A model generated the notes under the pieces. It was not told the origin of the DNA. It did not search any database and saw only the letters and a list, made by a program, of their open reading frames with translations. Shown in pieces: positions 30,799 to 51,870 of a DNA stretch of 52,166 nucleotides. This DNA comes from an uncultured Bacilli bacterium (GTDB taxonomy: Bacteria > Bacillota_I > Bacilli_A > Izemoplasmatales > UBA1188). The stretch covers positions 1 to 52,166 of the forward strand of contig CAJOMC010000008.1 of NCBI GenBank assembly GCA_905235635.1. Reading direction: 5' to 3'. Position numbers and translations under genes: made by a program. Numbering within the stretch: the first letter of the stretch is position 1; every line of letters begins with the position of its first letter.

Positions 30799-33108
30799 GT
30801 GTATTTTATCTATCAAATTATATTACCGATTGTTGCTGTAGCCATAGCACCTTTAATGGTATTTGTCCTAAAAGAAAAAAAACATATTGATTTAACTCTT
30901 AAGATAGTCGCAGGACTCTTTTTTCTTTTGGTAGCATTAAGAGAATTTACTCCAACAATTTATTCAAATGGTCGCGCTGCGATAACTCAAACAGTTTCGA
31001 TCCTTAGTGGTAGATTTGATTCTATATTTGGTAGATTTGAAGCTTTAGGACTCTTACTTATTAGATGGGTAGTAGGAATTAATTTTGGTGTATTCTTAGC
31101 CTCAATATTTTTTAATAGTAAAGGACTTAGAATACTAAAACTTGGAATAATGCCTATTACTATCCTTTTAAATATTGTCTTCTTTGAAAAGAATATAGTT
31201 GCGTTTTTAGGTGAAAGTGAAAGATATTATCTTCTAATGACATTAGAACAGTTCTTTGAAACAATAGTTCTAATAGTTGCATACGCTTTAACTTTAAATA
31301 AGGAAATAAGGTATGGATTTAAAGAAGATAAATTTACTAAGGTTAATTATTTAGAGGCTTTATTTACTTTTCTCCTTACTATTCCACTATTTATGCCTGC
31401 ATCCTTAATGTCTAATCTCTTTGGAAGCAACAATCATATCGCAAGAGATTTTGATAAGTATCATATCATGATATTAATAATTACATTTGGATCGATAATT
31501 GTTGGGTACTTCGTATTAAGAAAGAAGGATATGGTTGTAAGAGAGGCTGTACTTATGCTATTTGCTCTAGCCGCATTCTACCAATACTTTAATACATGGT
31601 ATACATTTGAAAATAGTTTAGCAAGTTATCCATTCCATATCTGTAATACTGCTGTAATATTTATGCCTGTTGCTCTTGCGTTCAAGCGAAAAGGATTATT
31701 CTTCTTTACATATTTCTGTAATGTACTTGGTGCTCTTTTTGCCTGTATGATGCCAAATGAAGATGAGATGTTTTCAATGGTTATGGCTGAATATTGGTAT
31801 AACCACTGCATTGATATCATATTCCCAATACTTGCGGTAATGCTTGGAGTATTTAGCCGTCCTAATCTTAAAGATATGCTTAAAGGTCTATCTGTATTCG
31901 CACTCTATATGATATTTGTTCAGATTGTAGGTGCTTACTGCAATAGAGATTTAGATCCAATGGTTAGATATTGGAATGCAGATTATTTCTTCCTATATGG
32001 AGAGAAATTTGAAAGTATTAAGATAGTTTCTTCGCTCGCAACAAGACTAAAATTTAATCATGTAACTAAAATTACAATCAATGGTCACTTGTATTATGGT
32101 TACGTTCTATATGCGTTTATAGTATTCTTAGTCTTTGTAATCTTGTCGTTCATAATGTGGTATCTCTACGATAGGATCTACCTAATTAGCGAAGATATTA
32201 AACTACTTATATACAAGACAAAAATTAAGAGAGATAAGATAGGAAAGACCTCAAGAAAAGAAATTGAGGAAATAAAAAATAAGATGGGAGGCAAGACAAT
32301 GATTAAGATATCGCATTTTTCTAAAAAATATGGATCAGCGACAAACTATTCAGTAAAAGATTTTAACTTAACAATTGATGATGGCGATGTATTTGGTTTT
32401 ATTGGTCATAATGGTGCCGGTAAATCTACTGTAATTAAATCACTTGTCGGAATCCAATCAATCACTGAAGGAAATATAGAAATATGTGGTTATGATATAG
32501 AAAAATATCCACTTCAAGCAAAACTTAATATTGGTTATGTATCTGATAACCATGCAGTATATGAAAAATTAACAGGTAGAGAGTATATAAATTATGTTGC
32601 AGATTTATATCAAGTACCAAAAGAATTAAGAGATGAAAGAATTAACCATTACGCAAGTATGTTTAGCCTAACTGATGCACTTGACAGAGAAGCTAAATCA
32701 TATTCACATGGTATGAAACAAAAGCTTGTAGTTATTTCATCACTTATACATGAACCTAAAGTATGGGTGTTAGATGAACCTTTAACAGGACTAGACCCTA
32801 CATCAAGTTACCAAATAAAAGAAGTTATGAAAGAACACGCAGCAAAAGGTAACATCGTATTCTTTTCAACTCACGTTATTGAAGTTATCGAAAAACTTTG
32901 TACAAAGATTGCGATTATCTCTCATGGTGAGATGATGGGAGTATACAAGATAGAAGATTTAAAGAAAGAAGGCATCTCTCTTGAATCACTCTACCTAAAA
33001 TACGTTGTATCAGATGACAATAGGGGCGAGTTTAGTGAAGAAGATATCGCAACAACCGATGCTGGATTAATTATCGAAAAGAAATTAAAAGGAAAACAAA
33101 CTAAATAA
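30799..33108 (+). CDS. Module A gene 1: TMEM164/YwaF-type membrane protein fused to ABC ATPase
   Basis: 769 residues, GTG start with AAGGAG (30786-30791). Residues 1 to about 470 have a dozen or so helices; the second half of this part is a YwaF/TMEM164-like domain: SYPFHICNTAVIFMP (Cys282), FCNVLGALFACMMPN, then EYWYNHCIDIIFPI. A charged linker (about 470-500) leads to a full ABC ATPase: Walker A GHNGAGKST (536-544), signature YSHGMKQK instead of LSGGQ, Walker B VWVLDEP, H-loop STHVIE. An AUG with its own GGGAGG begins precisely at residue 501. This ATPase must drive the permease encoded next. What the fused domain does is unknown; TMEM164 itself is a lipid acyltransferase with an essential Cys. 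Paralog: 41145-43406. Confidence 0.85.
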   Translation: MYFIYQIILPIVAVAIAPLMVFVLKEKKHIDLTLKIVAGLFFLLVALREFTPTIYSNGRAAITQTVSILSGRFDSIFGRFEALGLLLIRWVVGINFGVFLASIFFNSKGLRILKLGIMPITILLNIVFFEKNIVAFLGESERYYLLMTLEQFFETIVLIVAYALTLNKEIRYGFKEDKFTKVNYLEALFTFLLTIPLFMPASLMSNLFGSNNHIARDFDKYHIMILIITFGSIIVGYFVLRKKDMVVREAVLMLFALAAFYQYFNTWYTFENSLASYPFHICNTAVIFMPVALAFKRKGLFFFTYFCNVLGALFACMMPNEDEMFSMVMAEYWYNHCIDIIFPILAVMLGVFSRPNLKDMLKGLSVFALYMIFVQIVGAYCNRDLDPMVRYWNADYFFLYGEKFESIKIVSSLATRLKFNHVTKITINGHLYYGYVLYAFIVFLVFVILSFIMWYLYDRIYLISEDIKLLIYKTKIKRDKIGKTSRKEIEEIKNKMGGKTMIKISHFSKKYGSATNYSVKDFNLTIDDGDVFGFIGHNGAGKSTVIKSLVGIQSITEGNIEICGYDIEKYPLQAKLNIGYVSDNHAVYEKLTGREYINYVADLYQVPKELRDERINHYASMFSLTDALDREAKSYSHGMKQKLVVISSLIHEPKVWVLDEPLTGLDPTSSYQIKEVMKEHAAKGNIVFFSTHVIEVIEKLCTKIAIISHGEMMGVYKIEDLKKEGISLESLYLKYVVSDDNRGEFSEEDIATTDAGLIIEKKLKGKQTK
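32286..32301 (+). promoter_or_regulatory. Internal in-frame ribosome site and start for the ATPase of module A
   Basis: GGGAGG (32286-32291), seven bases, ATG (32299-32301), in frame with the large gene at codon 501. The product would be MIKISHFSKKYG..., a standard 269-residue ABC ATPase. Inference: both fused and free forms are made. Confidence 0.6.
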
Positions 33109-33120
33109 TTATAAATAAAA

Positions 33121-34860
33121 ATGGAAAACACTCAAAGGAAAGCTTGGGGTAGTGCAAAAGACTCAATTAAAAGAATCTATACACTAACCACTATGCAAAT
33201 TAAAGCACAAACTAAAAAAATAAATAAAACAAGAGGACGTAAAGCCCTCAGTTTTGTGCTTCAAGCTCTCCTTTTTATTGGATTAATATTCGCAGTTAGA
33301 TTATTCCTTAGTTTATTTATTACAATATTCCAAGTTTCTTTCTTTACTAACTATAGGACACTAACTGCATACCTTTTAATTATGCAAGTAATCTCTATAA
33401 TAACTTGCACCATAGGTATGATGAATACCATGTTCCTATCTAAAGATAATACTATTTTACTTTCTTTCCCATGTAGGCATGAAGAAGTGTTTATCTCAAA
33501 ACTTCTAGTATATTACTTCAAAGAATTTAAAAAGAACCTATTTGCAGTTACGACATTTATGGTTGCATTTGGAATAATGCAAACTAACTCCATTTTAAAT
33601 GATTATACTGTCAATAAACCTTTATGGTTTATCTTAACCGCTTTATATTCATTTATATTACCTTTAATTCCAGTATTAATCGGATCACTAATCTCATTAC
33701 CACTATCTCAAATTAAAAGACTTAGTCAAACAAATTCAGTATTTGAACTTATATCTCAAGTTTTGGTTTATGGATTTATATATCTTATTGTAATTCTTGT
33801 TGTATTAAAACTTCCAGAGGAGATTGCGGTAATAACCAAGTATACGACCTTTATTAATACGGTTAAGAATTTGATTTATAAATTGTCTGATTTTGGGCTA
33901 TATCTTAAATTCTTTATTAATACAATGATTCAAAGAAAAGTACTTCTTAACCTTATGTTTATTGGGTTAATAGTAATAGTAGGCATATTACTTACAACTT
34001 TAATTATTATGCCATTCTATTTCAAGATAGCATCATTCTCGATGGAATCAGCTAAGATGAGCAAACATAAAAATAATGCTAATTCCAATAAAACTATATT
34101 CTTTACTTTTTTTAGAAAAGAATTAAAGATCTCTATAAGAGATTTAACAAGTACACTATCAAGTTATTCACTTCTATTTATAATGCCTGCCTTTATGCTT
34201 TTAGTTTTAAGTATCTATTCAAGACTTAAATTAAATCCATCAATGGCAAATCAATATGTATCAGTATTCGCATTATTCTTTGTCTTTGCATTCTCATTCT
34301 TAAACAATGAAAGAAGTAGTACTGCACTTACAAGAGAAGGAAGTGAATATATCCTGATTAAAACATCGCCAAATAAAACTCAAAACATTGTTTGGGGAAA
34401 GGCGATAATGGAGATTATCTATACTACAGTATTTTTAACTTTCTCATTTGGTCTTTTAAGACTCTTAATGTGGATATTCAAAATATCTTATTTAGCATCT
34501 CCTATCACAATTGGAAACATTAAATTGGATATGTATTTTGTATCCTACCTCATTGCGCTTATAACTAATATAGGATTAGTATTCGACTCAGTTACTTTAG
34601 ATATTAAGAATCCTTATATTGCAGAGTATGCAACTACCAATTCAATTAAGGATAATAAAAATGTCTTTACATCTGAGGTTAATGGTTTATTCCTAGCTTT
34701 AATCTTTACTGTTGTAATCGCAATAGCAGGAATAGTTAAGTATAAGTTATTCCCTTATAGTTTTTTATTCCTACTTGGCTTTTCTATATTATATGCATTA
34801 TTTAAGTCATATATGTTAAAGAAGAATATATATGCATTCTTCGATGATATCGAATTATAG
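33121..34860 (+). CDS. Module A gene 2: large ABC-exporter permease
   Basis: 579 residues, N-terminal amphipathic charged helix then 10 or more helices. Features of the putative ABC exporter permease type (PF16949-like): SKDNTILLSFPCRHEEVF early, and ALTREGSEYILIKTSPNKTQNIVWGKA in the second half. No good ribosome site; it begins 12 bases after the ATPase stop, so it is probably translated by coupling. Paralog at 43426 shares the same marks (SKDNAILLTYPCKHEI, AISSEGNEFVLLKTAPSN). Confidence 0.8.
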   Translation: MENTQRKAWGSAKDSIKRIYTLTTMQIKAQTKKINKTRGRKALSFVLQALLFIGLIFAVRLFLSLFITIFQVSFFTNYRTLTAYLLIMQVISIITCTIGMMNTMFLSKDNTILLSFPCRHEEVFISKLLVYYFKEFKKNLFAVTTFMVAFGIMQTNSILNDYTVNKPLWFILTALYSFILPLIPVLIGSLISLPLSQIKRLSQTNSVFELISQVLVYGFIYLIVILVVLKLPEEIAVITKYTTFINTVKNLIYKLSDFGLYLKFFINTMIQRKVLLNLMFIGLIVIVGILLTTLIIMPFYFKIASFSMESAKMSKHKNNANSNKTIFFTFFRKELKISIRDLTSTLSSYSLLFIMPAFMLLVLSIYSRLKLNPSMANQYVSVFALFFVFAFSFLNNERSSTALTREGSEYILIKTSPNKTQNIVWGKAIMEIIYTTVFLTFSFGLLRLLMWIFKISYLASPITIGNIKLDMYFVSYLIALITNIGLVFDSVTLDIKNPYIAEYATTNSIKDNKNVFTSEVNGLFLALIFTVVIAIAGIVKYKLFPYSFLFLLGFSILYALFKSYMLKKNIYAFFDDIEL

Positions 34861-34869
34861 GTGAATTAT

Positions 34870-35334
34870 ATGAAAAAGAGTTTAATTATAGTGCTTATTA
34901 TCATATCGGTTGTATCAATATTTGCGTTAGGTATTTTAATCCCTAAAGTAGAGCAAACCATTGTGACTGTGAAAGTTACTGGAGTTAGTTTTTCTAATGA
35001 GGAAATTACGCTTAAAGAAGAACTTGATGATAATGGTAGCCAAATGAAAAGAATAGAACTTGTTGAAGGGACATCATCATTTCAACTAGAATGGAAAGTA
35101 TTTCCATATGATGAGGAGAATAAAAAGAGCGATGCAACTACTCCTGATGTTACATTCTTAGTCACCGGAAGTACTGGTGTAACTATTGATTCAAAAGGAC
35201 TACTTTCTTTTCCTAAAACACTAGATAAATCATTAAGTGTAACTGTAAAAGTTACTACTATTGATGGAAATAAAACAGATTATGTCGAAATCTTCATTAA
35301 ACATGATGTACATCATGGCGGAGATGATTTCTAA
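34870..35334 (+). CDS. Module A gene 3: small membrane-anchored protein with Ig-like domain
   Basis: 154 residues from ATG 34870 (AGGTGA at 34859-34864; a GTG at 34861 is possible but lies in that site). One N-terminal helix (3-25), then a beta-rich extracellular domain resembling bacterial Ig-like (BIG2) repeats: VTGVSFSNEEITLKE, FQLEWKVFPYDEENK, VTIDSKGLLSF and VTVKVTTIDGNKTDYV. Ends HDVHHGGDDF, a His-rich tail that could bind metal. Not seen in module B, whose third gene has other sequence. Confidence 0.65.
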   Translation: MKKSLIIVLIIISVVSIFALGILIPKVEQTIVTVKVTGVSFSNEEITLKEELDDNGSQMKRIELVEGTSSFQLEWKVFPYDEENKKSDATTPDVTFLVTGSTGVTIDSKGLLSFPKTLDKSLSVTVKVTTIDGNKTDYVEIFIKHDVHHGGDDF

Positions 35335-35380
35335 TAATATAAAAATAAAAAATAATAAATAATCCTAGGAGGAAATATAA

Positions 35381-38300
35381 ATGAAAACTATTAAAGGAAA
35401 GCTTTTAGCTTTACTATTAGTTATTGTTTCTATCTTCACCCTTGCGGCTTGTAAACCTAAAACTTATACTTTAAGTTTTGAGACAAACCGTGAAGGTGTA
35501 ACTCTCGAGCCTTTGACAGTTAAAAGAGAAAATGAAATTAACCTTGGAGATAGTGAGTATCAGCTTACTTCTGAAGGGTATGTATTTAAGGGTTGGTTCT
35601 TTGATGCTCAATTAACACGTATGGCATTAGTATTTAATCTAGAAGAAGATACTACTGTATACGCTAAATGGGCTAAAATTAACACAATAACATTCAACAC
35701 TAATGGTGGATCCGCTGTAGAAGCTTTAAAAGTTGAAGAAGGAAACACCTGTGAAAAACCAGATGATCCAACTAAAGACGGCTATGCTTTCGCTGGATGG
35801 TTTACTGATGAAGAATTAACCACTCAGTTTAATTGGATTATAGAAGTAAATGAAGATATGGAACTTTATGCAAAATGGAATGAAGTATTTACTGTTACTT
35901 TTGAAACTAATGGTGGAACAGAAATTGCTCCAGTGAATATTGAAATTGGTAAAAATTTCACTCTGCCACAAGGACCAACTAAAGAAGGTTACAAATTTAG
36001 TGGATGGTTTACTAATGAAGATTTAACTGAACCATATATATCTACTGGTACAATTAGTGCTAATTTAACTTTATACGCTAAATGGACTGGAAATACTTAT
36101 ACAGTTATCTTTAATTCAAATGGTGGAAAAGGCAATATGGCCCAACAATCATTTGTATATGGTATAGCTCAAAGATTAAGTGCTAATACATTTACAAAGA
36201 CTGGCTACGTATTTAATGGTTGGTCTTTAAGTGAAACAGGTGAAAAAGTATACGATAACGAGGAAGAAGTTTCAACACTTATATCTTCTGGTTCTCTAAC
36301 TCTATATGCAGTATGGGAAAAAGTAACTCTCTCTCTTTTATATGATACTAACTACCCAGAAGACGTAGAGGAACCTGAAAGTATAGCTAGTGTTCAAATC
36401 AAGATAGGTGATATAAAAGCATTATATAAATCTCTTGTAGAAATTGAACATTATACGTTTGCTAAATGGACACTTGATAAAGAGAACCCAACTAATGAAA
36501 ATTCATTTAATGCATTATCTGAATTTGAATTAACTGAAGCACTTATTACATCATATGCACATGATGGTGAAATTAAGTTATATGCTTTATGGACACCTAA
36601 ATTATATACAGTACTATTTATTGGTGGTGAAGCAACTACTGGCCAAATGGCTAGCCAATCATTTACATATAATGTATCTCAGGCACTATCTTTAAATGCA
36701 TTTGAAAAAGAAGGATATTTATTTGTTGGTTGGAAAGATCAAGATGATAATGTATATACAGATGGAGAATCTATTAAAGTATTTAAGAATTTAATATTAA
36801 TAGCTCAATGGCATAATCAGGTATATACAGTTACATTTAATCCAGGCACTGGAATTGGTGAAATGGCAGTTCAAAACATTATAGTTGATGAAGATACATT
36901 AAAAGCATCAGGTAAACTAACAGCTAATCAATTCACCAAAGTTGGACATTTATTTATCGGATGGGCAACAGAAGAAAATGGTGAAAAAGTTTATAACGAT
37001 AAAGCTGATGTTGAACTTGAAGGATCTATTACACTTTATGCTTTATGGGAAAAAGCAAGTTATACAGTTAAGTTTAATGCTAATGGTGGCGTAGGTGATG
37101 AAATGAGTGATTTAGTAGGAGAATTTGGCACAAGCGCAAGTCTTACTAAGAATATATATACTAGAAATCACTATGAATTTGGTGGCTGGGCATTAACATC
37201 CACAGGCGCAAAAGTACTTGATGATGAAGAAACTGTAACTCTTGATATAGAAAGTATTCAATTATTTAATAGTGATAGAGTTCTCGTATTATATGCAGTA
37301 TGGACTCCATCAACATATACATTAACTTATAATGCTAATGGTGGTGTAGGATCAATTGAACCACAAGTATTTATTTATGGTGAGGAACAAGCAATCACAC
37401 TAAATACTACAATTACTAGAACTGGATATGAATTTAAAGGTTGGTCACTTACAGCTAATGGTACTGTATATTTACTTGATGGTGCTAAATATGAATTATC
37501 AGCTGATACTGAAATCTTTGCAGTTTGGGAACAAATTGTTAATAGAGTGGTAGTTATTACTACTAATGGTTATCAAGCTGGTAATCAAGCAAATGTACTT
37601 GATGAATTCTCGGTTTATGATGCATTTAACATTTCATTAGATGGAGAAACTGTAGGCCAAAATATTAATACAGTAATGTTAAGTAAGACTTATACATATA
37701 ACGATTTAACATATATTGGCTTATTCAAGGACTATCAAGCAACTCAAGCAGTTATGGAAGATGATACTTATCACGCTCAAAGCGAAACAATTACACTATA
37801 TGCTTACTTTGCATTAACCCTAAAAGTTGATTTAGAAGCCTTTGGTGAAGAAAATGTAATCGTAAATGTATACAAAGAAAATGGTGTAAAAGTATCTTAT
37901 GATGATTTATACGAACACTTACCTGAACTTTCTCCACAATCTGGTAAAGTTGTATTCTATGATAACGCAGATTTAAGAAATATTACTAAATCTCTCATAG
38001 TGACTGCTTATGTATTAAATGAAGATGCTGAAAATGTCACTAGAAAAAATAATACATTTACTGTAGATTTAGGGGAAAACAAGGTTGTATATATTTCTAA
38101 ATTCTATCAAGGTTTTATTGATACAACATATAGATCTGTAAATGTTTTATATAACGAAGATAAAGATGAATTATTTGATGCTACAGACCCTACACATATT
38201 GATGTTATAGCTAAAAAAGTGGGTTATTCAGTAGTTGAAATAGAAGGTAGTTCAGGTGAAATTAGATTGTATCAAGTATATACAAGAAAACTTGTAAGTT

Positions 38301-40672
38301 CATTAAGTGTTCCTAGTTATGAAGAATATGCTACTAAGAACTTAAGTGCTAGTGGATCAAGATGGATTGATAAAGTAAAAGAAGGATACCGTGTTGGTAG
38401 TGGAAATATCTTTAAATTAAGACTTAATTCAGTTGACAACAACGGTGATTTAGTTACTGATTTATCACATATTGATCTAGAATATGCTGCTAGACTTGGT
38501 GGACCAGCTGGTGAACTACTAACCATAGAACTAGTAGATAACCTTGAAATTGACGGCAAAACATATACTAAAGCATTAAAATTCTTTAAAGAATCTATAG
38601 TTTATCTTTATGTTTTAACTGTTGATGATGAAGACAAAAGTTTTGTTGCAATCAAATTTACAAGTGATGCAAATGATAAGGAATTTAATTTAACAGTTAG
38701 TGTTCAAAATTCAACTGAATCAGTTACACTTGATTTTAGTGTTAATGGTGGTGTTAACGTTGAAAACAATGCTGAATTAAAACTATATTACGCTGATTTA
38801 GATGTTACAGAAATTAATATCCATAAGACTATTATTGCTGAGCTAGATAGTAATCAAATGAGAACAAAATATGGTAAAACATATCCTATTAACTATGAGC
38901 CTTATAATCAACTTTATAATGCTCAAAGAGGACTCCCGACTGGTGACGTTTATGTAAGAGCGGTAAAGAGTGCAGATACTATTGAAAATCATCTAAAAGT
39001 TAATGGTAACTATTTTACAATCGATGGAAGCAATTTACCAATAATCGATGATATAGACGATAATGGTAATGCGTATTGGAGTGATGAGCATAATGCAGTA
39101 AATAAAGACACTCAATGGGGTGTTAATGGCGGTGGACAAGGTAAAAAACTTTGGGTAAAGAATGTCCAAACATCTATCTTTGCTAACTTACTAGCATATA
39201 GAGATATAACAGAAGCAACTTATGGCTATGAATTAGTTTCAAATGGTGAAAACTTAACAACCATTACAGAAAATGATCCAACATACAATAGAGGACTCGG
39301 TTCATACCAACTTGTATATAGTCAATACACTAATTCTGTATCATATAATAACTTATATATTATTGGTAATACAATTACACCACAAGTTAACTATAGTCAA
39401 CCTGAAGAAAATATATTAACAGATGAACAACTTGCAGCATACAACTCTGGTGGATATAACGGTATTATGAATAGAGGATGTACTTCAAATATGGATAATG
39501 TAGTAATTGATTATACAAATATTGGTTTGAATGCATCTTGTGACAATGCAGTAATGAATATTAAAGATACATATGTATTCTATTCATGGGCTAACTCACT
39601 TTATGGCTGGTCAAGCTGTGTAGTTAACCTTGAAAATAGTGAATTTAGATATTCAGGTGGTGCATCAATTCATATTGACGAACATAGAATCGAACTTGGT
39701 GCTCATGAAGTTTATGATTATAGAGATGGTTATAGAAAAGGCCAAGAAAATGAAAGAATATTATTATTACATTTTGATCCAGTATTAAATATAGATAATA
39801 GAACTAAACTAGTCAACTGGGTATCAGGAAGTGAAGCATGGTTCAACATCTACGGTTTAAATGCAGTAACAACATTATTAACTGGTACAAACGATTTGGT
39901 TAACGCTTTAACAGCTGGTGCTCAAGGTGAAGGAATGTACTCAATAGTTAAGAGCTTTAATAATCTTGCTGATGATGATGTTGCTTATACTCAAAATAAA
40001 GAAGGTAATACTAACGAAATGTTTAACTTCGCAGTATTAATGAGAGAAGGTGATAACTTCGAAAATGCAACATATAAACCAAATACAACTGGCTTATTCA
40101 GTGCTATTCAAATGAATATTAATGGTGTAGATATTTATAGAAAGCCTGTCCAAGTTGCTCAATCAACATACTTGCCATTTGCTACTGCATCTGTTGCTGG
40201 TGGTTATGCAAGCTTCTATGCATCGCAAATAGAAGGTAAAGGAGATTTAGTTCCATATCCTGTATCACCTCTTTCTCAATTCCTTGATTCTCAAGAAGAA
40301 ATTCCAGGTATGGGTGGTGCTAAATATGGCCAAGTTCCTCCACTACTAGGTATCCATGCGGCATTTGAGGGTCTAGATATTCTTCAAGCTAATGGCGGCA
40401 ATACTTCAAGCGTTGAATATCAAACAAGAATTGCTCAAAGAAGTGCTATTATTCAAATGTTAAATAACAATACTTCAGTTCCTTTAGAATACCAAACTTG
40501 GGATAATTGGTCAGCATATAAATTAGGTCTTCAAATGAATCCTGTACTTAACCATGATGGCACATCTACTGGTTATGGTATGCTTGAATGTAATCTAGCA
40601 TTACCTGAAAGTTTTGGTAATATGAGATGTATATTACTCACATACTATTATCAAGGTAGAGAAATTGATTAA
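35381..40672 (+). CDS. Module A gene 4: giant InlB-repeat surface lipoprotein
   Basis: 1763 residues, lipobox LAAC (Cys24), strong AGGAGG. Residues about 30-810 hold nine clear InlB/Listeria-Bacteroides (PF09479-type) repeats, each with a TxxFxxNGG strand, GYxFxGW and LYAKW/LYAVW, plus a degenerate tenth. Then a linker and a large C-terminal part (about 1000-1763): GVNVENNAELKLYYADLDVTEINIH, VNGNYFTIDG, and many short N/D-rich strands (NVVIDYTNIGLN, NAVMNIKDTYVFY, VVNLENSEF), like a parallel beta-helix. It matches the end of the module B giant. Likely anchored outside the membrane, adhesin or glycan binding; no catalytic motif recognised. No LPXTG. Confidence 0.82.
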   Translation: MKTIKGKLLALLLVIVSIFTLAACKPKTYTLSFETNREGVTLEPLTVKRENEINLGDSEYQLTSEGYVFKGWFFDAQLTRMALVFNLEEDTTVYAKWAKINTITFNTNGGSAVEALKVEEGNTCEKPDDPTKDGYAFAGWFTDEELTTQFNWIIEVNEDMELYAKWNEVFTVTFETNGGTEIAPVNIEIGKNFTLPQGPTKEGYKFSGWFTNEDLTEPYISTGTISANLTLYAKWTGNTYTVIFNSNGGKGNMAQQSFVYGIAQRLSANTFTKTGYVFNGWSLSETGEKVYDNEEEVSTLISSGSLTLYAVWEKVTLSLLYDTNYPEDVEEPESIASVQIKIGDIKALYKSLVEIEHYTFAKWTLDKENPTNENSFNALSEFELTEALITSYAHDGEIKLYALWTPKLYTVLFIGGEATTGQMASQSFTYNVSQALSLNAFEKEGYLFVGWKDQDDNVYTDGESIKVFKNLILIAQWHNQVYTVTFNPGTGIGEMAVQNIIVDEDTLKASGKLTANQFTKVGHLFIGWATEENGEKVYNDKADVELEGSITLYALWEKASYTVKFNANGGVGDEMSDLVGEFGTSASLTKNIYTRNHYEFGGWALTSTGAKVLDDEETVTLDIESIQLFNSDRVLVLYAVWTPSTYTLTYNANGGVGSIEPQVFIYGEEQAITLNTTITRTGYEFKGWSLTANGTVYLLDGAKYELSADTEIFAVWEQIVNRVVVITTNGYQAGNQANVLDEFSVYDAFNISLDGETVGQNINTVMLSKTYTYNDLTYIGLFKDYQATQAVMEDDTYHAQSETITLYAYFALTLKVDLEAFGEENVIVNVYKENGVKVSYDDLYEHLPELSPQSGKVVFYDNADLRNITKSLIVTAYVLNEDAENVTRKNNTFTVDLGENKVVYISKFYQGFIDTTYRSVNVLYNEDKDELFDATDPTHIDVIAKKVGYSVVEIEGSSGEIRLYQVYTRKLVSSLSVPSYEEYATKNLSASGSRWIDKVKEGYRVGSGNIFKLRLNSVDNNGDLVTDLSHIDLEYAARLGGPAGELLTIELVDNLEIDGKTYTKALKFFKESIVYLYVLTVDDEDKSFVAIKFTSDANDKEFNLTVSVQNSTESVTLDFSVNGGVNVENNAELKLYYADLDVTEINIHKTIIAELDSNQMRTKYGKTYPINYEPYNQLYNAQRGLPTGDVYVRAVKSADTIENHLKVNGNYFTIDGSNLPIIDDIDDNGNAYWSDEHNAVNKDTQWGVNGGGQGKKLWVKNVQTSIFANLLAYRDITEATYGYELVSNGENLTTITENDPTYNRGLGSYQLVYSQYTNSVSYNNLYIIGNTITPQVNYSQPEENILTDEQLAAYNSGGYNGIMNRGCTSNMDNVVIDYTNIGLNASCDNAVMNIKDTYVFYSWANSLYGWSSCVVNLENSEFRYSGGASIHIDEHRIELGAHEVYDYRDGYRKGQENERILLLHFDPVLNIDNRTKLVNWVSGSEAWFNIYGLNAVTTLLTGTNDLVNALTAGAQGEGMYSIVKSFNNLADDDVAYTQNKEGNTNEMFNFAVLMREGDNFENATYKPNTTGLFSAIQMNINGVDIYRKPVQVAQSTYLPFATASVAGGYASFYASQIEGKGDLVPYPVSPLSQFLDSQEEIPGMGGAKYGQVPPLLGIHAAFEGLDILQANGGNTSSVEYQTRIAQRSAIIQMLNNNTSVPLEYQTWDNWSAYKLGLQMNPVLNHDGTSTGYGMLECNLALPESFGNMRCILLTYYYQGREID

Positions 40673-41144: not shown

Positions 41145-43406
41145 ATGTCTTATTCATTCAAACAGAAGATAGAGAATTTATTTAATAATAAGAACCTAAT
41201 ATTAACTCTTAAGATACTAGCTTTTTGCCTATTTTTAGTATATCTTTTCCAACTATTCGTTAAATACGATATAGATGGACATGGTATTGAATATTACTGG
41301 GAAGATAGTCCAAAAGAAGGACAAATGAAAGCTTGTACCCCGTGGCATGCCTTATTAATCCAGTATGAGCATATGGATCCACAACGAGCAATAACACTAT
41401 TCATATTTATGGTATTTCTAAGATGGTCAACAATAGTTTTTGTTGGGTTTAGTGTAATTGTTCCATTTTTTGGTGGTAAGACCTGTAAACCAATACTCGC
41501 ATTTATTGGTCCAATTATCGGTATCTTAAATCTTGTATTTCTTAAATATAACTTTAAAGCATGGGATTATTTCTATCTTACGGGTAACACAAATGGAGTA
41601 TATACAACCTGGAGAGCTATTTTATTTATTATAGAACAAGCCCTACTCCTTTTAATATCTTTGTCGTATCTCTTTTACTACATAGTAACTGGTAATTTTG
41701 AAGGTTTCTCGTGGAAGAGATTTCCATTAATTTTAATTGGAATGTTTATTACTTTTTTCTATCAGCCTATACTCACAATTCTCTTCAATGAAGCTGGTGA
41801 GATGACGAAAGATTTTAGTATATCTCACATAATAAGTCTAAGCGCGAATCTAGTATTTTTATTAAGTGTATATTTAATAATGCGCAATAAAACAATAGAA
41901 GATAAAAACCTTCTTTTTGCGGCATTAACCTGTTCTGGGATATTTAATTTCTTTTATTATCCCTATCAATCATTAAATAACGTGCCACTACACCTATGTA
42001 ATGCCGCCATTATACTAATGTTTGTTGCATTCATATTTAAAGTAGAAGGAGTATTCTATTTTACCTACTTTGTTAATGTAATAGGTGCACTATTCGCAAT
42101 GCTTATGCCTAACTGGCACCCAGACACTTATTCACTTATGAGTGTAAGGTTTTGGTATAACCACATATATGCATTTGTTGTGCCAATACTTGGTGTTGCT
42201 CTACATGTATATCCAAGGCCTAAACTTAAACAGATGTTTAAGGCAATACTATGGTTTACTCTCTATTATATTTTAGTAGCGATATGTAATCCCTGGTTTT
42301 CAAGTTATCCAGGACAGGGAAGAATATCTTATTTCTTCATCAATGAACCTTTCTATTTCGAAACACTTAAAATAGATCATATGGGCAATAGAATATATGA
42401 ACTTTTATGGATTGAAAATGTCTACACCTTTGATGTGCCTGATATATTCCATAAGGTAGAATATATCCATTTTGTTTTTAAACCCCTATTTTTAATTTCT
42501 GTATATGTAGTTTTTATCGGTCTAATGTTTGTTATGTGGTATATCTACGATATCTTATTCCATACCGCAGATAGCCACTATAACTTAAGAATAAAAAAGA
42601 AACTAGTTAAAGAGGGATATCTAGATTTAAAGAGAGAATTAAATGGAAGAAGCATTAAAGAACCACTTTATAAGGAGAAAGTTAATATGATTGAAATAAA
42701 GAATTTCACTAAGATTTATTCTGGTTCTAATAAAAAAGCTGTAGATAATTTAACATTAACCATTCCAAATGGTTGTGTATATGGTTTTTTAGGTCATAAT
42801 GGCGCAGGTAAATCAACCACAATAAAATCTATTGTGGGTATTCAAACCATTACTAGTGGAAAGATTATTGTTGAAGGATATGACGTAAGTAAACAATCAG
42901 TGGAAGCAAAACTAAATATAGGATATGTATCTGATAATCATGCTGTATATGAAAGACTAACTGGCAGAGAATATATCAATTATATCGCTGATTTATATAT
43001 GGTTAAAAAAGAAGATAGAGATGAAAGAATTGATAAATATGTAAAGATGTTTAAGTTAGAAGATGTAATTGATCAAGAGGCTAAATCATACTCTCATGGT
43101 ATGAAACAAAAACTAGTAATTATAGCTTCATTAATCCATGACCCAAAGGTTTGGATATTAGATGAACCTTTAACTGGACTTGACCCCACATCTTCATATG
43201 AAATAAAAGAATGTATGAGGGAGCACGCTAATCGTGGAAATATCGTATTCTTTTCATCACATGTAATAGAGGTTGTGGAAAAGATATGCGACAGAATTTG
43301 CATTATTAACCATGGAAAACTCATGTGTGAGTACACAATGGATGAAATACATAATAATGGTATTTCACTAGAAAACTTATATTTAAAGTACTTAAAAGAA
43401 GATTAA
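41145..43406 (+). CDS. Module B gene 1: TMEM164/YwaF-type membrane protein fused to ABC ATPase
   Basis: 753 residues, same layout as 30799-33108 but diverged. Membrane part with VPLHLCNAAIILMF (Cys285), NVIGALFAMLMPNWHPD and RFWYNHIYAFVVPI. ATPase from residue 515: Walker A GHNGAGKST, signature YSHGMKQK, Walker B VWILDEP, SSHVIEVVEK. The ATPase halves of A and B are strongly alike (GYVSDNHAVYE, LTGREYINY), the membrane halves much less. Internal AAGGAG and ATG at codon 515. The N terminus differs from copy A (hydrophilic MSYSFKQKIENLFNN). Copy B begins with a weak ribosome site. Confidence 0.85.
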   Translation: MSYSFKQKIENLFNNKNLILTLKILAFCLFLVYLFQLFVKYDIDGHGIEYYWEDSPKEGQMKACTPWHALLIQYEHMDPQRAITLFIFMVFLRWSTIVFVGFSVIVPFFGGKTCKPILAFIGPIIGILNLVFLKYNFKAWDYFYLTGNTNGVYTTWRAILFIIEQALLLLISLSYLFYYIVTGNFEGFSWKRFPLILIGMFITFFYQPILTILFNEAGEMTKDFSISHIISLSANLVFLLSVYLIMRNKTIEDKNLLFAALTCSGIFNFFYYPYQSLNNVPLHLCNAAIILMFVAFIFKVEGVFYFTYFVNVIGALFAMLMPNWHPDTYSLMSVRFWYNHIYAFVVPILGVALHVYPRPKLKQMFKAILWFTLYYILVAICNPWFSSYPGQGRISYFFINEPFYFETLKIDHMGNRIYELLWIENVYTFDVPDIFHKVEYIHFVFKPLFLISVYVVFIGLMFVMWYIYDILFHTADSHYNLRIKKKLVKEGYLDLKRELNGRSIKEPLYKEKVNMIEIKNFTKIYSGSNKKAVDNLTLTIPNGCVYGFLGHNGAGKSTTIKSIVGIQTITSGKIIVEGYDVSKQSVEAKLNIGYVSDNHAVYERLTGREYINYIADLYMVKKEDRDERIDKYVKMFKLEDVIDQEAKSYSHGMKQKLVIIASLIHDPKVWILDEPLTGLDPTSSYEIKECMREHANRGNIVFFSSHVIEVVEKICDRICIINHGKLMCEYTMDEIHNNGISLENLYLKYLKED
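42672..42689 (+). promoter_or_regulatory. Internal in-frame ribosome site and start for the ATPase of module B
   Basis: AAGGAG (42672-42677), nine bases, ATG (42687-42689), codon 515 of the fused frame. It lies at the same domain boundary as in module A. Confidence 0.62.
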
Positions 43407-43425
43407 ATAGAGGAATATATAGTAT

Positions 43426-45078
43426 ATGTTTCATAAAATAAAGATTTTAACTTTAATGCAACTAAGTGAGAAGTTTAAGTTAAGAACTAATCTCACCCGC
43501 CAACAGAAACTAGGTATAATAGGCAAGATATTCATTAAAATGTGCATATCTTACGCTCTTTTTACCCTAGTTTTTTATGTTGTATTTAAAGTACTCTTTA
43601 TTATGCCTACAGTGAATTTATTCACCTTTGTAATATTTATTATGCAGATATTTGGAATCATCGCCCAAACAACTAAATTATCTGATTCATTATATATGAG
43701 TAAAGATAATGCGATACTACTCACTTACCCTTGTAAACATGAGATTATATATTTTTCTAAAATATTAGTTGCATATATTATTGAATTATATAGAAGCATA
43801 TTATTTATATTTCCTATATTTATGGCCTTTATGACAATAACCTCTACTATAAAGATAGGAAATATAATGAATGTAATAAGTTATTCTTATATAATCCTTT
43901 CTATATTATTTTCCTTAATATTACCATTATTCCCTGTATTAATAGGTGCGCTTATATCTATACCAGTTACCTATATTAGAAAAGGGATTAAGAAGTACAC
44001 TATGCTTAAAATAGTTTGTCTATTTATTTTGATAGGGTTATTATCATATATTACTTATTTAATAGTAAATTATTTACCATCAGTATTATTAATTGTCCAA
44101 AAGTTCGCACAAATCACAGAAAAAGCAAATGAATTTTTTATAAGTTTTAATAAATACTCTATTCATTGCCTTTTTATAGGTAAGGCAATGAATAACGATA
44201 ATGTTTGGTTAAATCTATTATTTATATTCCTAATATTATTTGGATTAATGTGGCTATCTATCATTATATCTATGCCTTTATTCTTTACACTCGCATCTTC
44301 ATCGAGTGAACATGCGGTTATAAATAAGCATAAAGGTGTAAATAAGACATATAAAAATCCATTTTCTAGCTTTATGCATAAAGAATTGATTCTATCTATT
44401 AGAAATATAGGAGATTTCGCCTCTGATTACCTATTTTTGTTTCTTATGCCTTTTATATTATCTGTTATGGCTGCGATATTTATAAGAGTTGATAGAAATA
44501 ATTTAGGTCTTGCGATGACATATTCATTTATAGGTTTTATCACTTTAATCCTTTTATCTGCCTCATCTACCTCAGCTGCAACCGCTATATCAAGTGAAGG
44601 CAATGAATTTGTATTACTAAAGACGGCGCCATCTAATACATCAAGTATTATATGGTCTAAACTTTTGATGAACTTCATTATGGATTTCATAATGTTATCA
44701 CTATCCTATGGTATTCTATCATTAATATTTAAATCCGATAATAATCTAAAAACTTTATGGCTAGTATATATAGTTGTCCTACTTGTAAGTTTTGGAGTGA
44801 TGATGTGGAGTATACAGCTTGATATAGAAAAACCAAAACTTAAAGAGTATGCGAATAGTGAAAAAAGAAGTGATGTATCTAATTTTAACACATCTATTGG
44901 AATAGGCCTTGGAGTAGGGATAGAGTTTAGTATCATTATGAACATAGTATTTCTTATGGGTATTCCATTATTATTCCAAGCCCTCATTCTTATTGGCCTA
45001 GCTCTTATTTTTTGTCTTGTTAGACTATATTTCTTAATCGGTTTTTCAAAAGCTTATTTTAAAGATATTGAATTATAG
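43426..45078 (+). CDS. Module B gene 2: large ABC-exporter permease
   Basis: 550 residues, paralog of the 33121 gene. Hydrophobic throughout with an N-terminal basic helix; SKDNAILLTYPCKHEI, then FMHKELILSIRNIGD, and AISSEGNEFVLLKTAPSNTSSIIWSKLL near residue 390-415. Ends in AYFKDIEL, as copy A ends in AFFDDIEL. GAGGAAT ribosome site. Confidence 0.82.
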   Translation: MFHKIKILTLMQLSEKFKLRTNLTRQQKLGIIGKIFIKMCISYALFTLVFYVVFKVLFIMPTVNLFTFVIFIMQIFGIIAQTTKLSDSLYMSKDNAILLTYPCKHEIIYFSKILVAYIIELYRSILFIFPIFMAFMTITSTIKIGNIMNVISYSYIILSILFSLILPLFPVLIGALISIPVTYIRKGIKKYTMLKIVCLFILIGLLSYITYLIVNYLPSVLLIVQKFAQITEKANEFFISFNKYSIHCLFIGKAMNNDNVWLNLLFIFLILFGLMWLSIIISMPLFFTLASSSSEHAVINKHKGVNKTYKNPFSSFMHKELILSIRNIGDFASDYLFLFLMPFILSVMAAIFIRVDRNNLGLAMTYSFIGFITLILLSASSTSAATAISSEGNEFVLLKTAPSNTSSIIWSKLLMNFIMDFIMLSLSYGILSLIFKSDNNLKTLWLVYIVVLLVSFGVMMWSIQLDIEKPKLKEYANSEKRSDVSNFNTSIGIGLGVGIEFSIIMNIVFLMGIPLLFQALILIGLALIFCLVRLYFLIGFSKAYFKDIEL

Positions 45079-45087
45079 AGGTTACAT

Positions 45088-45675
45088 ATGAGTAAGAAAA
45101 ATATTGCATTAGTTTTAATTATTGTCTGCCTCTTAACTATCATGATGGTAGGTGTTTTTGGTAACTCAACAGTCACTGGAACTAAAACTAATGTAGAAGA
45201 AGTATTTTTCTTAAAAGAAGATGGTCAAGTTATAGAAAAGAATAGTGATGATATGTTTATTTTATCTTTGGAATATACAAGAAATGACCTAATAGACATA
45301 ATTAATAGTGACGATGGTAATACCTATAAAATATATAAAATATTATTCTATGGTGTTGTATCCCCTCTTAATTCATCATATCCAAAATTATTCATAGATA
45401 TAGATAATCTTTCAAGTGGAATAAAATTAATAAAAGAAGAAAATCCTATAAATTGGCCATTTTCCTTAAATGAAGATGATAAGCCTTTAGGCATCATATA
45501 TAAATACACTTTAGAAATTGATTCAAGTATTATTAGAAATGGATCGGTCTCTTTAACAACCAGAATTGATGAACATAATAATACAACTAAAGTGATAATC
45601 CCAACACTCAATATAAGTTGGGAATATATTAAATCAGAAGAGGAGATAATAGAAGATAGTGAAGACTTAGAATGA
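45088..45675 (+). CDS. Module B gene 3: small membrane-anchored extracellular protein
   Basis: 195 residues; a signal-anchor helix (about 5-25) then a hydrophilic, beta-rich domain with an acidic tail EEEIIEDSEDLE. AGAGGT before the ATG. It holds the same place as the module A third gene, but I see no clear sequence kinship beyond layout. Ends with TGA TAA in tandem, overlapping the next gene's ribosome site. Not recognised. Confidence 0.65.
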   Translation: MSKKNIALVLIIVCLLTIMMVGVFGNSTVTGTKTNVEEVFFLKEDGQVIEKNSDDMFILSLEYTRNDLIDIINSDDGNTYKIYKILFYGVVSPLNSSYPKLFIDIDNLSSGIKLIKEENPINWPFSLNEDDKPLGIIYKYTLEIDSSIIRNGSVSLTTRIDEHNNTTKVIIPTLNISWEYIKSEEEIIEDSEDLE

Positions 45676-45690
45676 TAAGGAGAAAGACTC

Positions 45691-48600
45691 GTGAATAAGA
45701 AAATTTACTCTATTTTACTAATCTTAGTAATGATCTTAACTCTATCATCATGTAGAATTCAGGGTGGCGACTCTTATAAGGTCAGCTTTGATACTAATGG
45801 TGGTAACAAAATCCAATCGATAGAGGTTAAATATGGTGAATCATTCCTATATCCTACACCTATTAAGGAAGGGCATACCTTTGATGGTTGGTTTACAGAT
45901 AAAAACCTGACAGTTAATGCAACTCCAGGTACTGTATTTTCTGATGATGTTACTTTATACGCTAAATGGAGTATAAATACTTACTCAGTAACATTCATGT
46001 TAGACGAGGAATTAATGTATGGGATTAAGTCAGATAAATTTGGATCTGAAATAAGAATTGATGATCCAAGTCTATTAAACCATACATTTAAAGGGTGGTA
46101 TACAGATACCTCATTTACTACAAAATTCAATAATAAGATACCATCACATGATGCATATATTTACGCAAAATGGGTGCCAAATGAGGTAAATATTTCATTT
46201 GTCTCTATTGGCTCACCATCACACCAAAAAATGGATGATGTAACACTTATTTGGGGATTAAATACAACTCTACCAGAGAACATCTTTACTAAAGAAGGAT
46301 TTGAATTTATTGGCTGGGCAAAATCACCTGATAGTGATCTCGTTTATCGTGATAATGAAACATTATCTTCAATTCCAAAAACTGAATCTTATACTTTATA
46401 TGCAGTATGGAAACCTTTATTATATAGTGTTATTTATATTGCGGATGGAGAAAGATTCGGAGATATAATAGAAAAAGAATATGGTTCAACAATAGATGTA
46501 CCAGTTGACGTACCATTAAAAGAAGGGTATCAATTTTCATACTGGTATATCTATAGGGAAACAAATGATACAACTTTCATAGAAAATAAAGATTATTATA
46601 CTCTACTAAATAATATATATAGTATAGCAAATGTTGAACCATGAGCCACTATAGATGGCATTTATTTTGAAAGTGTTAAACTATCAAATGAAACAACTAT
46701 ACATATTGGGGGGATTATTGTATATGCTTATTTCACTCCAATTAGATATGAAATTAAGTTTGATTCAAATGGTGGTTTAGGCAACATGCCTAATCAAAAT
46801 TATATCTATAACGAAAGAAAAGCTTTAAGTAAAAACACCTTTACTAAAACCGGTTATACGTTTATTGGTTGGAGCATTACACAAGGTGGAGATATAGCAT
46901 ATTTAGACCAAACTCAGGTATTAAATCTTTCTATAGAGAACAATAGTATAGTTACTCTATACGCAGTATGGAGTATTAATAAATATCATATTAGGTTTAA
47001 TTTAGGCGATAGTTTAGAAAGTGAGACATCATTTAGCGACACTGATTTGCTTAAGGCAGGCACTTATAAAGATGGAGATCATATTTATTGTATTATTTCA
47101 ATAGAAGGATGCGTTTATGATATATACGCTGACTATGGAACTAACCTAATTGATTTAATTCCAGGTGAATATCCAATAAGAACTGGTAGAACATTCCTTG
47201 GTTGGTCTAAAACTGTTGATAAAGTTGAGGACCAAGATATAGATATATATGCTTTATGGTCACAAATATATGATAGTCACTTACTAACAATAAATATTAT
47301 TGATGAGAACAACGAAATAATTGGTAACTATCTCACTATTCAAGTTGAATACAATGAATCAATTACACAATTTAAACCTAAAAGAGAAGGATATGATGCA
47401 GAAATATATCTATATGATGGTTTAGAATATCAATTATTTGATATAAATACTCATCCGCTTATGCCTGATTATGATTTAAGCATATATGTTAGGTTTAGTA
47501 TAATGAAATACACGATAACGTATTATAGTAATTCAAATAGTCCATATCACATTGATATAGAAAAAGAATATGGTACATCATATGAAATAATTGGTGAACC
47601 AAATGATGGATTAATAGGTTTTACATTCAGTGGTTGGTATAGCGAGAATGACTCTTTAATTATTTATTATAGTCCAGGACAAGTAATTAATATAAATAAA
47701 GATCTTGTGCTTTATGCATTATGGAATGAAACAGAATATAACGTTACATATTATAATGGAATTGGCGGGGATAAAATTTATGAAACCACAACCACAAATG
47801 TAGGTGTTTCATCATTTATAGATTATATATATCTAATGGATGAGGAAATCGCTGGATACAGCGCTATTGAAGATGCAATATCAAGCGCTATAAGTGGAAA
47901 TGTAGATCCAATAACAAGGTTAATCATATTAGTAAATCTCGCGAAGAATTTAGGTTTTGATAAGCCTCTATTTGACTTATTATATGATTCAATCACAGAA
48001 GAATTTGACACCTTATTAATTAATATCGCAACTTCATCAGGTGCTTCTCAAGAAGAGGCAGTAAACGAGTTACTTGGCGCAATTATCACAAATGATCAAA
48101 TATATGGTAGAGTGACTAGCGCAATTATAAGTGCATCACAAAGTGACTTGGAAGATTTAATCAGAATAGTAACCTATTTTACAACATATAATGCAGTATT
48201 AAATGCAGAAGAACTAGGTTTATCTACACTATTTGATTTAATAGAAGATAATACTATAACACAGCTGTTAATCTCTTTAGCTCAGGCTAGTACTGATACT
48301 GAAAAAGCTGAGATTATAGCGACTTTATATAATAATCCACTAGTTTATAATGAGAGCTACTCATATCCTAACTTCTCTAGTGGATATGATTATATTAAGT
48401 ATGCAATAGATGTATCTAATACTAATACTGATCCACTTAATTTGGTTGTTGGGTACGTAATGTTTAAATATTTAGATAATATATATGAATACTCCCACGA
48501 TTTATCGGATATAAAAAATTTAATAGATAATGGTGATACGGAATACTTAAACGCTATCTTATTGGTAGGTTCAACTACTGGATCTGAGCAAGCACAAAAC

Positions 48601-51600
48601 GTTGCATCTCTTATATCTTTAACGCTTTTAAGAAGCGAATATGGTTCTATAATATCCGCAATTATGGATTCTTCAACCGGAAATTTAATCCCATTGCTTA
48701 GATTCATTTATTATGATGTATACAAGGACTATCCAACACTTTATTTCTTATCATCAAAATTAGATTATGTAGAATTAATTATTAATTTTCCGAACGTTCA
48801 AGAACCACTTCTTAACGCAACAAACGATGCTTTATTATCTTTAAACGCTATATTTAACGCATACCGTGACAACGCATATTATCCATATAAAGAAGGCTAT
48901 ATATTTGAAAAATGGAGTTTACAAATAGAAGATAATAATTATAGGTATTATGCAAACTGGATAAAACCACTTGATGCGCCTTTAGATTTAAGACTTGATA
49001 CATTCAAGAATAAATATGTAATATTCACTTGGAATATAGTTGATGATGCATATTTATATGAAGTTATGTATAAAATAAATGATGATGTATACATCACAAG
49101 AAGGGTTGATATAAACAGTATAACTATTCCGGTAAATGAGGATGGTACGACTATTAGTATTAAGGTAAGAGCTATTTATAACCCTGAAACTCTTACTCTT
49201 CAAAATACATATAAAGGAGAAATAGTTACTGCGATTAATTCGGTAGATATGAATTCGCCATTCTCTTTAGAAATTCATTATACTCATAGTGTTTCAATAG
49301 GGGCAACACAAACGGTAGAGTCACAAGGCAACTACTACTATAGAGTTGAGGGCGAGAGTGAATCTGACCCTGAAATATATTATCTATTTACGGGACAAAG
49401 TTATAGCTTCTCAAACGCAACAAACGTAAGTATTAATGGTACTACTTCATCTGCAAGAATACAAATAATACATAACAAGTATTACCTAATAACCACATCA
49501 AAAGCTGGTGAATTTACATTCACAGTTACAAAAGATGAAATAGATACTACTTATAGAGCAATAGTCCAGTTAACACCACAGGCTATTATCGCATCAGGAC
49601 CTCTTAAGAGTTATGAAACAAACCATAGAAATGCCCTTGATGGTATTATAAACCCTACATTTATTCATCAATCAGATTCTTTCTATTGTGTAGGAGTTTC
49701 TTCATTAGATGCATACGATAATGGTTTATCCTATGTCTATAATAATAAAACCTATTATAACGGATTTATTCTTGATTTTGTCGCATCAACCACATCAGGC
49801 ATAAATACAAATATTGAATTTAGTATTGAAGTAGAAAAAGATAGTATGATGCAAGAAGAGGGAAAAGATTATATATTAGAGTATGATATAGATAATCAAA
49901 GACATATCATTTATTTCCTTAAAATAGGTACTTATAATATAACACTTAAAGAAAAAGAGGATGTATCAGATACTGAGCTAAATACTCAGATTCCAAAGAT
50001 AATGAAAGAGAATGAGACATTACGAAAAACATTTAATGTTTGTGTAAATGAAGGCGTAAATGTCTATACTGACTTTGGCCTTAAGGAAACATATGGCGAT
50101 TTAGATGTTTCTATAATTAACCTTCATAGTAATATAGAAGCTATTTTATCACCTAATATGGTTGCATATTATGAATACTTAATAGATAGTGGATTAACCC
50201 ATGATCAGACCAATGATTATGATACTAAATATTTAGGGGAAAGCTCTAATATTCGCGATTTAGCGGAATTAAACGTTAAATCAGGAACTGCGGTTATGAC
50301 AGATGATATTGCCTATGGTCCAATGATATGGATAGTAAATGCAACTAACCCTTTATTTAGAGATGTAGATGGAGTAGGTTATTCATACTCAAAGACCCAA
50401 GGTACACACGTGATTAAATCATGTGAATGGATTAAAGCTGAAAGAACAGAAGAAGATAAAGGGACGTTTAAAATAATAAACTCTCACATTAGATACTACG
50501 ATAGATTCTCTCCATATGACTTAAAAATAGCGTACCTCTATCAAAGAATAGTTACTGATGAAGGTAAGGGTGATAACGTAATTTTAAATGGTAACTACTT
50601 TACTGTAGATGGAAAAGATCTCCCATATATCGCATCAGGTGCATATGTTCAATCTATTGGTACATTTCAAGCGGCATATCAGATTCAAAATGTTCAAGTC
50701 GCAATGTTTGTATATGCATCAAAACCATATAAGGTTTCAAATACTCAAGTATCAGAATTATCAGAGATGACAATTAATGATTTAGGTATTATAGGAAACT
50801 CTATGGATGTATCCGCATGGCTTCAAACCAATTCAGGTTCTATATCATCAGTATCTGAATATATGGCAAGGACATCTGGTACATATTGTGGAATACAGGT
50901 TACTCAGTTAGAGTGGGGACCACTCCAGGAAATGACCGAGTTATCTATAAATAATGTATCTATTGAAAACACATTAATTGGACTATATGTTCAAAGTAAC
51001 CCATATACAATATCTAATTATCTTCATATAAAACAAACTTGGGCTAATAGTATTTATTCTAATGGCGGACATAACTATTTATATAACTCATATATAGAGA
51101 CATCAGGCGGTGGTGCAACACAAGCTGATGATATCTATTATATGGGTAACTTAAATGGAAATACTTTTCACGCGAAAGAGTATACATTTATAGTAGATGG
51201 TAGTACTCGAGAATTTATAGTTCCAATAAGTTGTGATAGTATTACAAATATAACTATTGGAGATGAAGAAATTGATTCATCTTTATATAGTTATAACCCT
51301 ATATCTAGAGTTGTTACATTAGATGATAGGATAACTACACCTCAAGAAAATACTGAGGTAAAGATTACTATTAGGTATAAAGGCATAAATGCCTCTATGA
51401 TAATTGACGATGCAACTATCATCAACAATCTAGTATCAGGTGACGAACAATGGTTTAAGGCTTATGGTATGGAAGTAATGGGATTAGGACTTAAGGCACA
51501 AGTTGAGGCTGGTATCCAAGATTACAATAATTATATTTATTCCCTATCTGGATCAAACCCTAATTACACTATAATTCAGCCTTATTACGATACTCTCTTA

Positions 51601-51870
51601 GGTCAACAGATAGATAAAATTAACTTAGTATTCGTGGCTAAAAATAATGATGTGTCTTCTTATATCACAGGTAGTTACAATGTATCAGATGTATTCTCTG
51701 AATATAGTATAGGTGATGTCGCAAATACTATTATCTTGGCTGAGTCAGAGAATCAAACAGTTAAGCTTATAACCACTATAAATGATGAAGTTTATGTCTC
51801 AGTTACTCAAAAATTAGGTCAAGATTCACTAATTGTAGTACTTAAGGTATATACTAAAAACCAAAGTTAA
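45691..51870 (+). pseudogene. Module B gene 4: giant InlB-repeat lipoprotein, split by one in-frame TGA at 46642
   Basis: GTG start with AAGGAG (45677-45682); lipobox LSSC (Cys21). The frame stops at TGA 46642-46644 after 317 residues, then stays open for another 1741 residues; full length would be 2059. The stop falls inside the fourth InlB repeat, whose second half (ending IIVYAYFTPI) follows in frame, so the reading was once continuous. Order: nine repeats up to residue about 1090, the ninth split by a 350-residue helical insert (about 711-1060); an Fn3-like domain (about 1093-1180); and a C-terminal part kin to module A (GVNVYTDFGLKETYGDLDVSIINLH, LNGNYFTVDGKD, beta-helix-like). The 46786 ATG has no good ribosome site, so without readthrough the second part is silent. 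Confidence 0.75.

Follow-up and report, generated by a model that had tools for sequence, protein, structure and literature searches.

Lipoproteins at the surface of Bacillus are N-acetylated by LhaT (YpjA), which draws on a lipid donor for which no flippase is known. LhaT was assigned to a branch of the ATGY superfamily, to which TMEM164 also belongs (PMC12345273). Human TMEM164 is described as a cysteine-dependent acyltransferase (PMC13276253) and as a phospholipid transacylase (PMC12345273, PMC13276253). The known members of the TMEM164/YwaF family (PF14808) stand alone. In the window, by which we mean the whole analysed stretch of 52,166 nt from an uncultured Bacilli bacterium, two proteins shared with this family a Pfam match above gathering, the conserved Cys/His residues and a polytopic membrane domain. 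Unlike the known members, however, they were fused to an ABC ATPase, carried an extra membrane half of ~215 aa and shared their operon with genes for a permease and a lipoprotein. LhaT belongs to the same superfamily by assignment and, as a surface membrane acyltransferase working on lipoproteins from a lipid donor, has an activity that may be comparable, but it has no ABC ATPase fusion. The known routes of N-acylation by LhaT, PcrB and Lnt appeared to be missing: none of 90 genomes from the order contained the LhaT family (DUF1405, PF07187), PcrB was not found by a family search of this genome, with positive B. subtilis controls for both, and Lnt (LNT_N, PF20154) had no match in this genome. 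Three Lgt-family genes were present in the genome. The third of them (PF01790, E=1.5e-28) overlapped an Rce1/CAAX-protease-like membrane gene (PF02517) in the window (291-1043 and 1018-1782, both on the minus strand), possibly as an extra lipoprotein- or lipid-tailoring pair.

Other described systems were similar to parts of the locus. Among ABC-2/DrrA-like exporters, the module ATPase was 42-43% identical to the ATPase of plasmid-borne Lactobacillales pairs with a ~530-aa protein, but no TMEM164 domain, small protein or giant lipoprotein was annotated alongside those pairs. The List_Bact/Flg_new repeats of Listeria internalins and InlB B-repeat proteins were shared by the giant lipoproteins; here, however, no full model was reached (giant A scored 97 bits against a cut-off of 1600 for InlA and 62 against 1050 for InlH, through the repeats only), the anchor is that of a lipoprotein, and the proteins have their own C-terminal domain (CTD), which also occurs on lipoproteins of 650-800 aa with few or no repeats. 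LanFEG with LanI likewise joins an ABC-2-type pump to a lipoprotein partner, but the locus stayed below the family cut-off and its partner is a giant with a different domain. The ABC ATPase, TMEM164 and the InlB repeats were already recognisable, whereas the TMEM164-ABC fusion, the four-gene system and the CTD had no counterpart among the systems named in Pfam, NCBIfam or the PDB. In the open-access literature, no layout with YwaF fused to an ABC transporter was found, and for these lineages nothing relevant by title or abstract was found that linked InlB proteins to ABC transporters.

Layout and composition of modules A and B

Modules A and B, with four genes each, occupied positions 30799-40672 and 41145-51870, and their features were listed in Table 1. 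The gene order, coordinates, sizes and spacing given for both modules in an earlier, sequence-only reading agreed with the gene list, and one terminator was located for each module, as that reading had claimed. It had also described the first genes as membrane-ABC fusions; the fusion was confirmed, but the identity of the membrane part with TMEM164/YwaF, an ATGY-superfamily acyltransferase, had been missed (PF14808, 57.1 and 73.2 bits in A and B against a gathering threshold of 25). The claimed paralogy of the ATPases and permeases held, with 42% identity between the fusions over the BLASTP alignment and 31% between the permeases. The two small proteins were united by the family profile and were 18% identical when aligned, but their direct comparison gave only a weak N-terminal match.

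Table 1. Positions of the features of modules A and B and of their upstream companion in the window
Feature	Position	Strand	Basis
Companion gene of module A, degenerate SBP_bac_5-like lipoprotein, 371 aa	29562-30677	+	PF00496 sub-threshold
Module A fusion, 769 aa	30799-33108	+	PF14808 E=2.4e-15, PF00005 E=4e-24, both above gathering
Parts of module A fusion: membrane half 1-215; TMEM164/ATGY ~221-449; ABC ATPase ~501-738	~31459-32145 (TMEM164/ATGY)
Candidate partner residue His222, fusion A (codon)	31462-31464	+
Cys282 in PxHxCN, candidate acyl-enzyme nucleophile (codon)	31642-31644	+	Conservation in aligned TMEM164 domains
Candidate partner residue His336, fusion A (codon)	31804-31806	+
Module A permease, 579 aa, ~12 TM, ABC-2-like	33121-34860	+	Alignment; sub-threshold PF01061/PF16949 in some relatives
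Module A small protein, N-terminal TM anchor and Big_2/Ig-like extracellular domain	34861-35334	+	Family profile, hhalign to cousins
Module A giant lipoprotein, 1763 aa, lipobox LAAC (Cys24), InlB-type repeats	35381-40672	+	PF09479 E=7e-94
CTD of giant A	38648-39910	+	Common to non-truncated module lipoproteins
Strong intrinsic-terminator-like hairpin 3' of module A	40715-40739	+
Module B fusion, 753 aa, TMEM164 (~224-404) and ABC	41145-43406	+	PF14808 E=2.8e-20, PF00005 E=1e-27
Module B permease, 550 aa	43426-45078	+	BLASTP, alignment
Module B small anchored protein, 195 aa	45088-45675	+	Family profile E=1e-45 (profile includes this sequence)
Module B giant, 5' part, lipobox LSSC (Cys21) and InlB repeats, stops at TGA 46642-46644	45691-46644	+
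Module B giant, 3' part, same frame, CTD 49999-51522	46786-51870	+	Frame open again directly past TGA
Terminator-like inverted repeat and T-run 3' of module B	51897-51935 (approx.)	+	Read by eye

The fused ATPase was DrrA-like. Its best NCBIfam match, TIGR01188, was below the cut-off (199.5 versus 312.45), and the motifs GHNGAGKST, YSHGMKQK and LDEPLTGLD were invariant in the fusion-family ATPase alignment. No family was matched above any curated cut-off by the permease, the small protein or the CTD. A sequence search of the PDB with the fusion, the permease and the C-terminal region returned nothing significant, and no PDB fold match with E<=0.001 was obtained for the membrane part of the fusion.

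The common InlB-type repeats (PF09479) and C-terminal domain that had been proposed for the two giants were confirmed by Pfam and by an iterated profile. Giant B had been taken for a single ORF, but it was divided by the in-frame TGA into ORFs of 317 and 1694 aa. In the window TGA terminated 5 of 32 genes and all 128 Trp codons were TGG, so TGA is a genuine stop here and its reading as Trp in giant B was ruled out. What remains for giant B is either gene breakage or a fault of the assembly. In the six genus-mates no homologous stretch was found for comparison.

The fifth gene, directly upstream of module A, is a genus-level companion. A homologue of its product (34% identity) was encoded directly upstream of the module at locus L013, and a lipoprotein gene of similar size also lay upstream of modules L011, L012 and L014. 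At the end of the window (51960-52166, minus strand), the C-terminus of an IS30-type transposase-like protein was read by eye, and an insertion element may border module B. Another surface protein is probably encoded at 8072-11149 on the minus strand; its 1025 aa include a SASA carbohydrate-esterase domain and one weak match to an InlB-type repeat.

Recurrence of the module across Bacilli

The question whether the four genes recur together was answered by ~40 loci in several Bacilli families, in which the same gene order was found. When both fusions were used as queries, seven more fusion loci were retrieved from related metagenome-assembled genomes, to which L017, with a contig end inside the TMEM164 part, is additional. 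In six of these seven the permease, the small protein and an InlB-type giant followed in the same order, and L014 ended within the permease. Of 90 genomes in the order, 23 had a relative of the permease by its profile, as did 67 of 395 in Bacilli, and a phylum sample added nothing outside the class. Among 57 permease loci (E<1e-30, some from the same genome), the fusion was directly upstream in 44 with a median gap of -1 bp, and the small protein was directly downstream, also in 44, at a median of 8 bp.

The CTD was covered by an iterated profile of ~340 positions started from giant A and was found in 31 proteins near permeases, namely the two giants of the window, those of other modules where not truncated, the 650-800-aa lipoproteins and one TM-anchored cousin (L125), while more distant members lay upstream of the fusion in L117-L119. 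Nearly every non-truncated module had a lipoprotein with the same unannotated ~340-residue CTD, and wherever the contig was intact the CTD sat inside a module. Modules without a CTD match were mostly cut by a contig end; L113 and L128 appeared complete yet had none, and in L128 the fusion was present with no lipoprotein immediately downstream. The lipoproteins of the modules spanned 650-3568 aa and had ordinary signal peptides, and a lipobox was present, by regular expression, in the CTD-bearing module members with an intact N-terminus. The AF2 model of the CTD region (5 sequences) was unusable with a pLDDT of 36, and a right-handed beta-helix, suggested by Asn/Gly patterns and a sub-threshold Pectate_lyase_5 match, is only a guess.

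The linkage of fusion, permease and giant foreseen by the sequence-only reading was put to the test and survived: these genes were not dispersed in relatives without co-occurrence, and the CTD never occurred without the permease in the 395 genomes (34 genomes with the CTD, 34 of them with the permease, Fisher p 9e-31). Within the order the CTD was accompanied by the permease in 16 of 17 genomes, the exception (G073) being a CTD ORF cut 5' by a contig edge. For the fusion, the permease, the small protein and the CTD, the matrices of pairwise distances were correlated at r=0.81-0.94 over 27 complete modules, to which shared organism phylogeny contributes, and the observed correlation was reached in 0 of 2000 permutations. 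The CTD co-varied most closely with the permease (r=0.94). The recurrence of the module is far beyond chance, and its components, namely permease, TMEM164-ABC ATPase, TM-anchored Ig-like protein and CTD lipoprotein, are inherited as a unit. Since the same four genes stay together across many related bacteria, they look like a dedicated and undescribed cell-surface machine, and each module is very probably a dedicated multi-component envelope system.

Fusion A was nearest to its genus-mates, with 82% identity to L011 and 56-57% to L012 and L013. Fusion B, in contrast, was 63% identical to the L015/L081 module of another family and about 40% identical to fusion A, which ruled out a recent tandem duplication. 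The earlier description of the modules as tandem paralogues was right in that they lie side by side and are paralogous, but they are paralogues of ancient origin. The two copies were brought together by ancient paralogy or transfer.

Looser arrangements of the same parts were also observed. In L112 and L113, TMEM164 and the ATPase were separate neighbouring genes in one operon. No TMEM164 fusion was found in the cousin systems L120-L127 and L131. In seven of these (L120-L124, L126 and L131), an ATPase of ~245 aa without TMEM164 and a permease of ~550 aa were combined with a TM-anchored third protein of 950-1130 aa, and the cousin operons often continued with a lipoprotein of up to ~3000 aa. 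The small protein matched the N-terminus of the cousin third proteins (hhalign E=5e-9), a further region of which resembled the first half of the CTD (prob 92, E=6e-7 in one alignment; prob 61, E=8e-5 in another), and Big_2 Ig-like domains were present in the L120 third protein. The TM-anchored third protein of L125 matched the CTD with E~1e-22 while already included in the profile, and a 5-row profile comparison was not significant. As the two regions are joined in one polypeptide in the cousins, the small protein and the CTD probably cooperate on the outer face, and as the cousins run without a TMEM164 fusion, the acyltransferase seems to be an add-on to a core ABC machine. A rule by which the CTD is always lipid-anchored with TMEM164 and TM-anchored without it was set aside; it was suggestive, confounded by phylogeny and weakened by L128.

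The fused TMEM164 domain and the possible role of the module

The suggestion of the sequence-only reading that the system might lipid-modify its partner was a good one, as the N-terminal membrane part matched the acyltransferase family TMEM164 (PF14808). In the aligned TMEM164 domains of the system and its neighbours (window A numbering), Cys282 was kept in 49 of 51, His336 in 51 of 53 and His222 in 45 of 49, and by this conservation within ~50 relatives the Cys/His set is a candidate for the catalytic residues. Counting helices back from the cytosolic ABC domain, His222, Cys282 and His336 were all predicted at the outer face. Given that cytosolic domain, the same location is predicted by the low K+R content of the adjoining loops, which averaged 0.9, 1.2 and 0.4 beside H222, C282 and H336 over 45 fusions, versus 2.3, 1.9 and 3.2 in the intervening loops. 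The AF2 model of fusion A residues 1-499 was of moderate quality (pTM 0.74, pLDDT 72). The fused domain is probably an active acyltransferase in most members. Two fusions of genome G193, L114 and L116, had lost both Cys282 and His336, and their modules were retained with five CTD-bearing lipoproteins (three and two in tandem), so catalysis is dispensable there; they form a natural "dead enzyme" contrast. A stand-alone TMEM164/YwaF gene (PF14808, 43 bits) was also observed in the window, at 5381-6070 on the plus strand, directly after rhamnose genes (aldolase II, FGGY kinase, RhaA).

The best explanation of the whole, to which we assign a probability of roughly one in three, is an ABC-2-type machine with an outward-facing acyltransferase that acts on or alongside its own lipoprotein, with a donor perhaps moved by the pump. 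In this mechanism the permease and ATPase would form an ABC-2-type exporter or flippase, and the small Ig-like protein would dock the lipoprotein CTD onto the permease. The fused domain would be a functional acyltransferase whose Cys/His site lies on the outer side of the membrane. Once the pump had brought a lipid carrying an acyl group into the outer leaflet, this domain would hand that group on to the partner lipoprotein, with the N-terminal cysteine as the likeliest target, or to the lipid holding it. In this way the fusion would link the supply of the donor with its use on a single surface protein. The mechanism would parallel that of LhaT in Bacillus, where lipoproteins are N-acetylated from a lipid donor. 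The narrower version, a lipoprotein-tailoring machine in which an ATGY acyltransferase fused to a donor-supplying ABC transporter modifies one giant, as an ABC-coupled counterpart of LhaT, is tentative and on the unlikely side, and the partner lipoprotein as acyl acceptor is a similarly doubtful candidate. Counter-evidence comes from the G193 paralogues, which keep the module without Cys282 and His336, and from the cousins, which have no TMEM164.

Two other explanations, both unlikely, account for parts of these observations. The fused domain may edit a membrane lipid by lysophospholipid reacylation or transacylation, with the pump flipping the same lipid and the giant serving as a co-regulated surface effector or sensor instead of the acceptor. 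The transacylase activity described for human TMEM164 is in line with this, and as TMEM164 relatives were very common (88 of 101 genomes) and most apparently lay outside such modules, their substrate could be an ordinary lipid. Stand-alone TMEM164 genes were abundant in the order, some of them beside modules (L088, L098). Lipid editing, however, leaves unexplained why the CTD never occurs without the permease. The other explanation is a dedicated machine for secretion, assembly or mechanotransmission, in which ABC cycling would act through the anchored Ig-like protein on the CTD to extrude, release or move the giant, with TMEM164 only as a membrane scaffold or regulator. The close co-variation of CTD and permease would fit this. 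The existence of the core (ABC, permease, and small protein with CTD-like region) without TMEM164, and the two fusions without Cys282 and His336, point the same way. Yet lipoproteins are normally exported by Sec and the signal peptides here are ordinary, and almost all fusions keep the Cys/His set with hardly any variation.

Self-protection or efflux in the manner of LanFEG and LanI, with an ABC-2 pump expelling a membrane-active compound that the surface lipoprotein captures, is improbable. TIGR03740, the lantibiotic protection ATPase, was among the better ATPase matches, and uncharacterised pairs of an ATPase and a ~530-aa protein exist on Lactobacillales plasmids. However, the fusions scored 137.3 and 161 against the TIGR03740 cut-off of 309.75, LanI proteins are small whereas the lipoproteins here are large throughout their range, and no bacteriocin gene was recognised nearby, without a dedicated search.

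The module forms a coherent unit, and the Bacilli lineages that carry it are known chiefly through metagenome-assembled genomes. Should the acyltransferase reading hold, the mostly uncharacterised bacterial YwaF/TMEM164 proteins would be tied to a specific protein partner, and the module would offer a concrete candidate for the delivery of an acyl donor to the outer leaflet, a step left open in the LhaT pathway of Bacillus.
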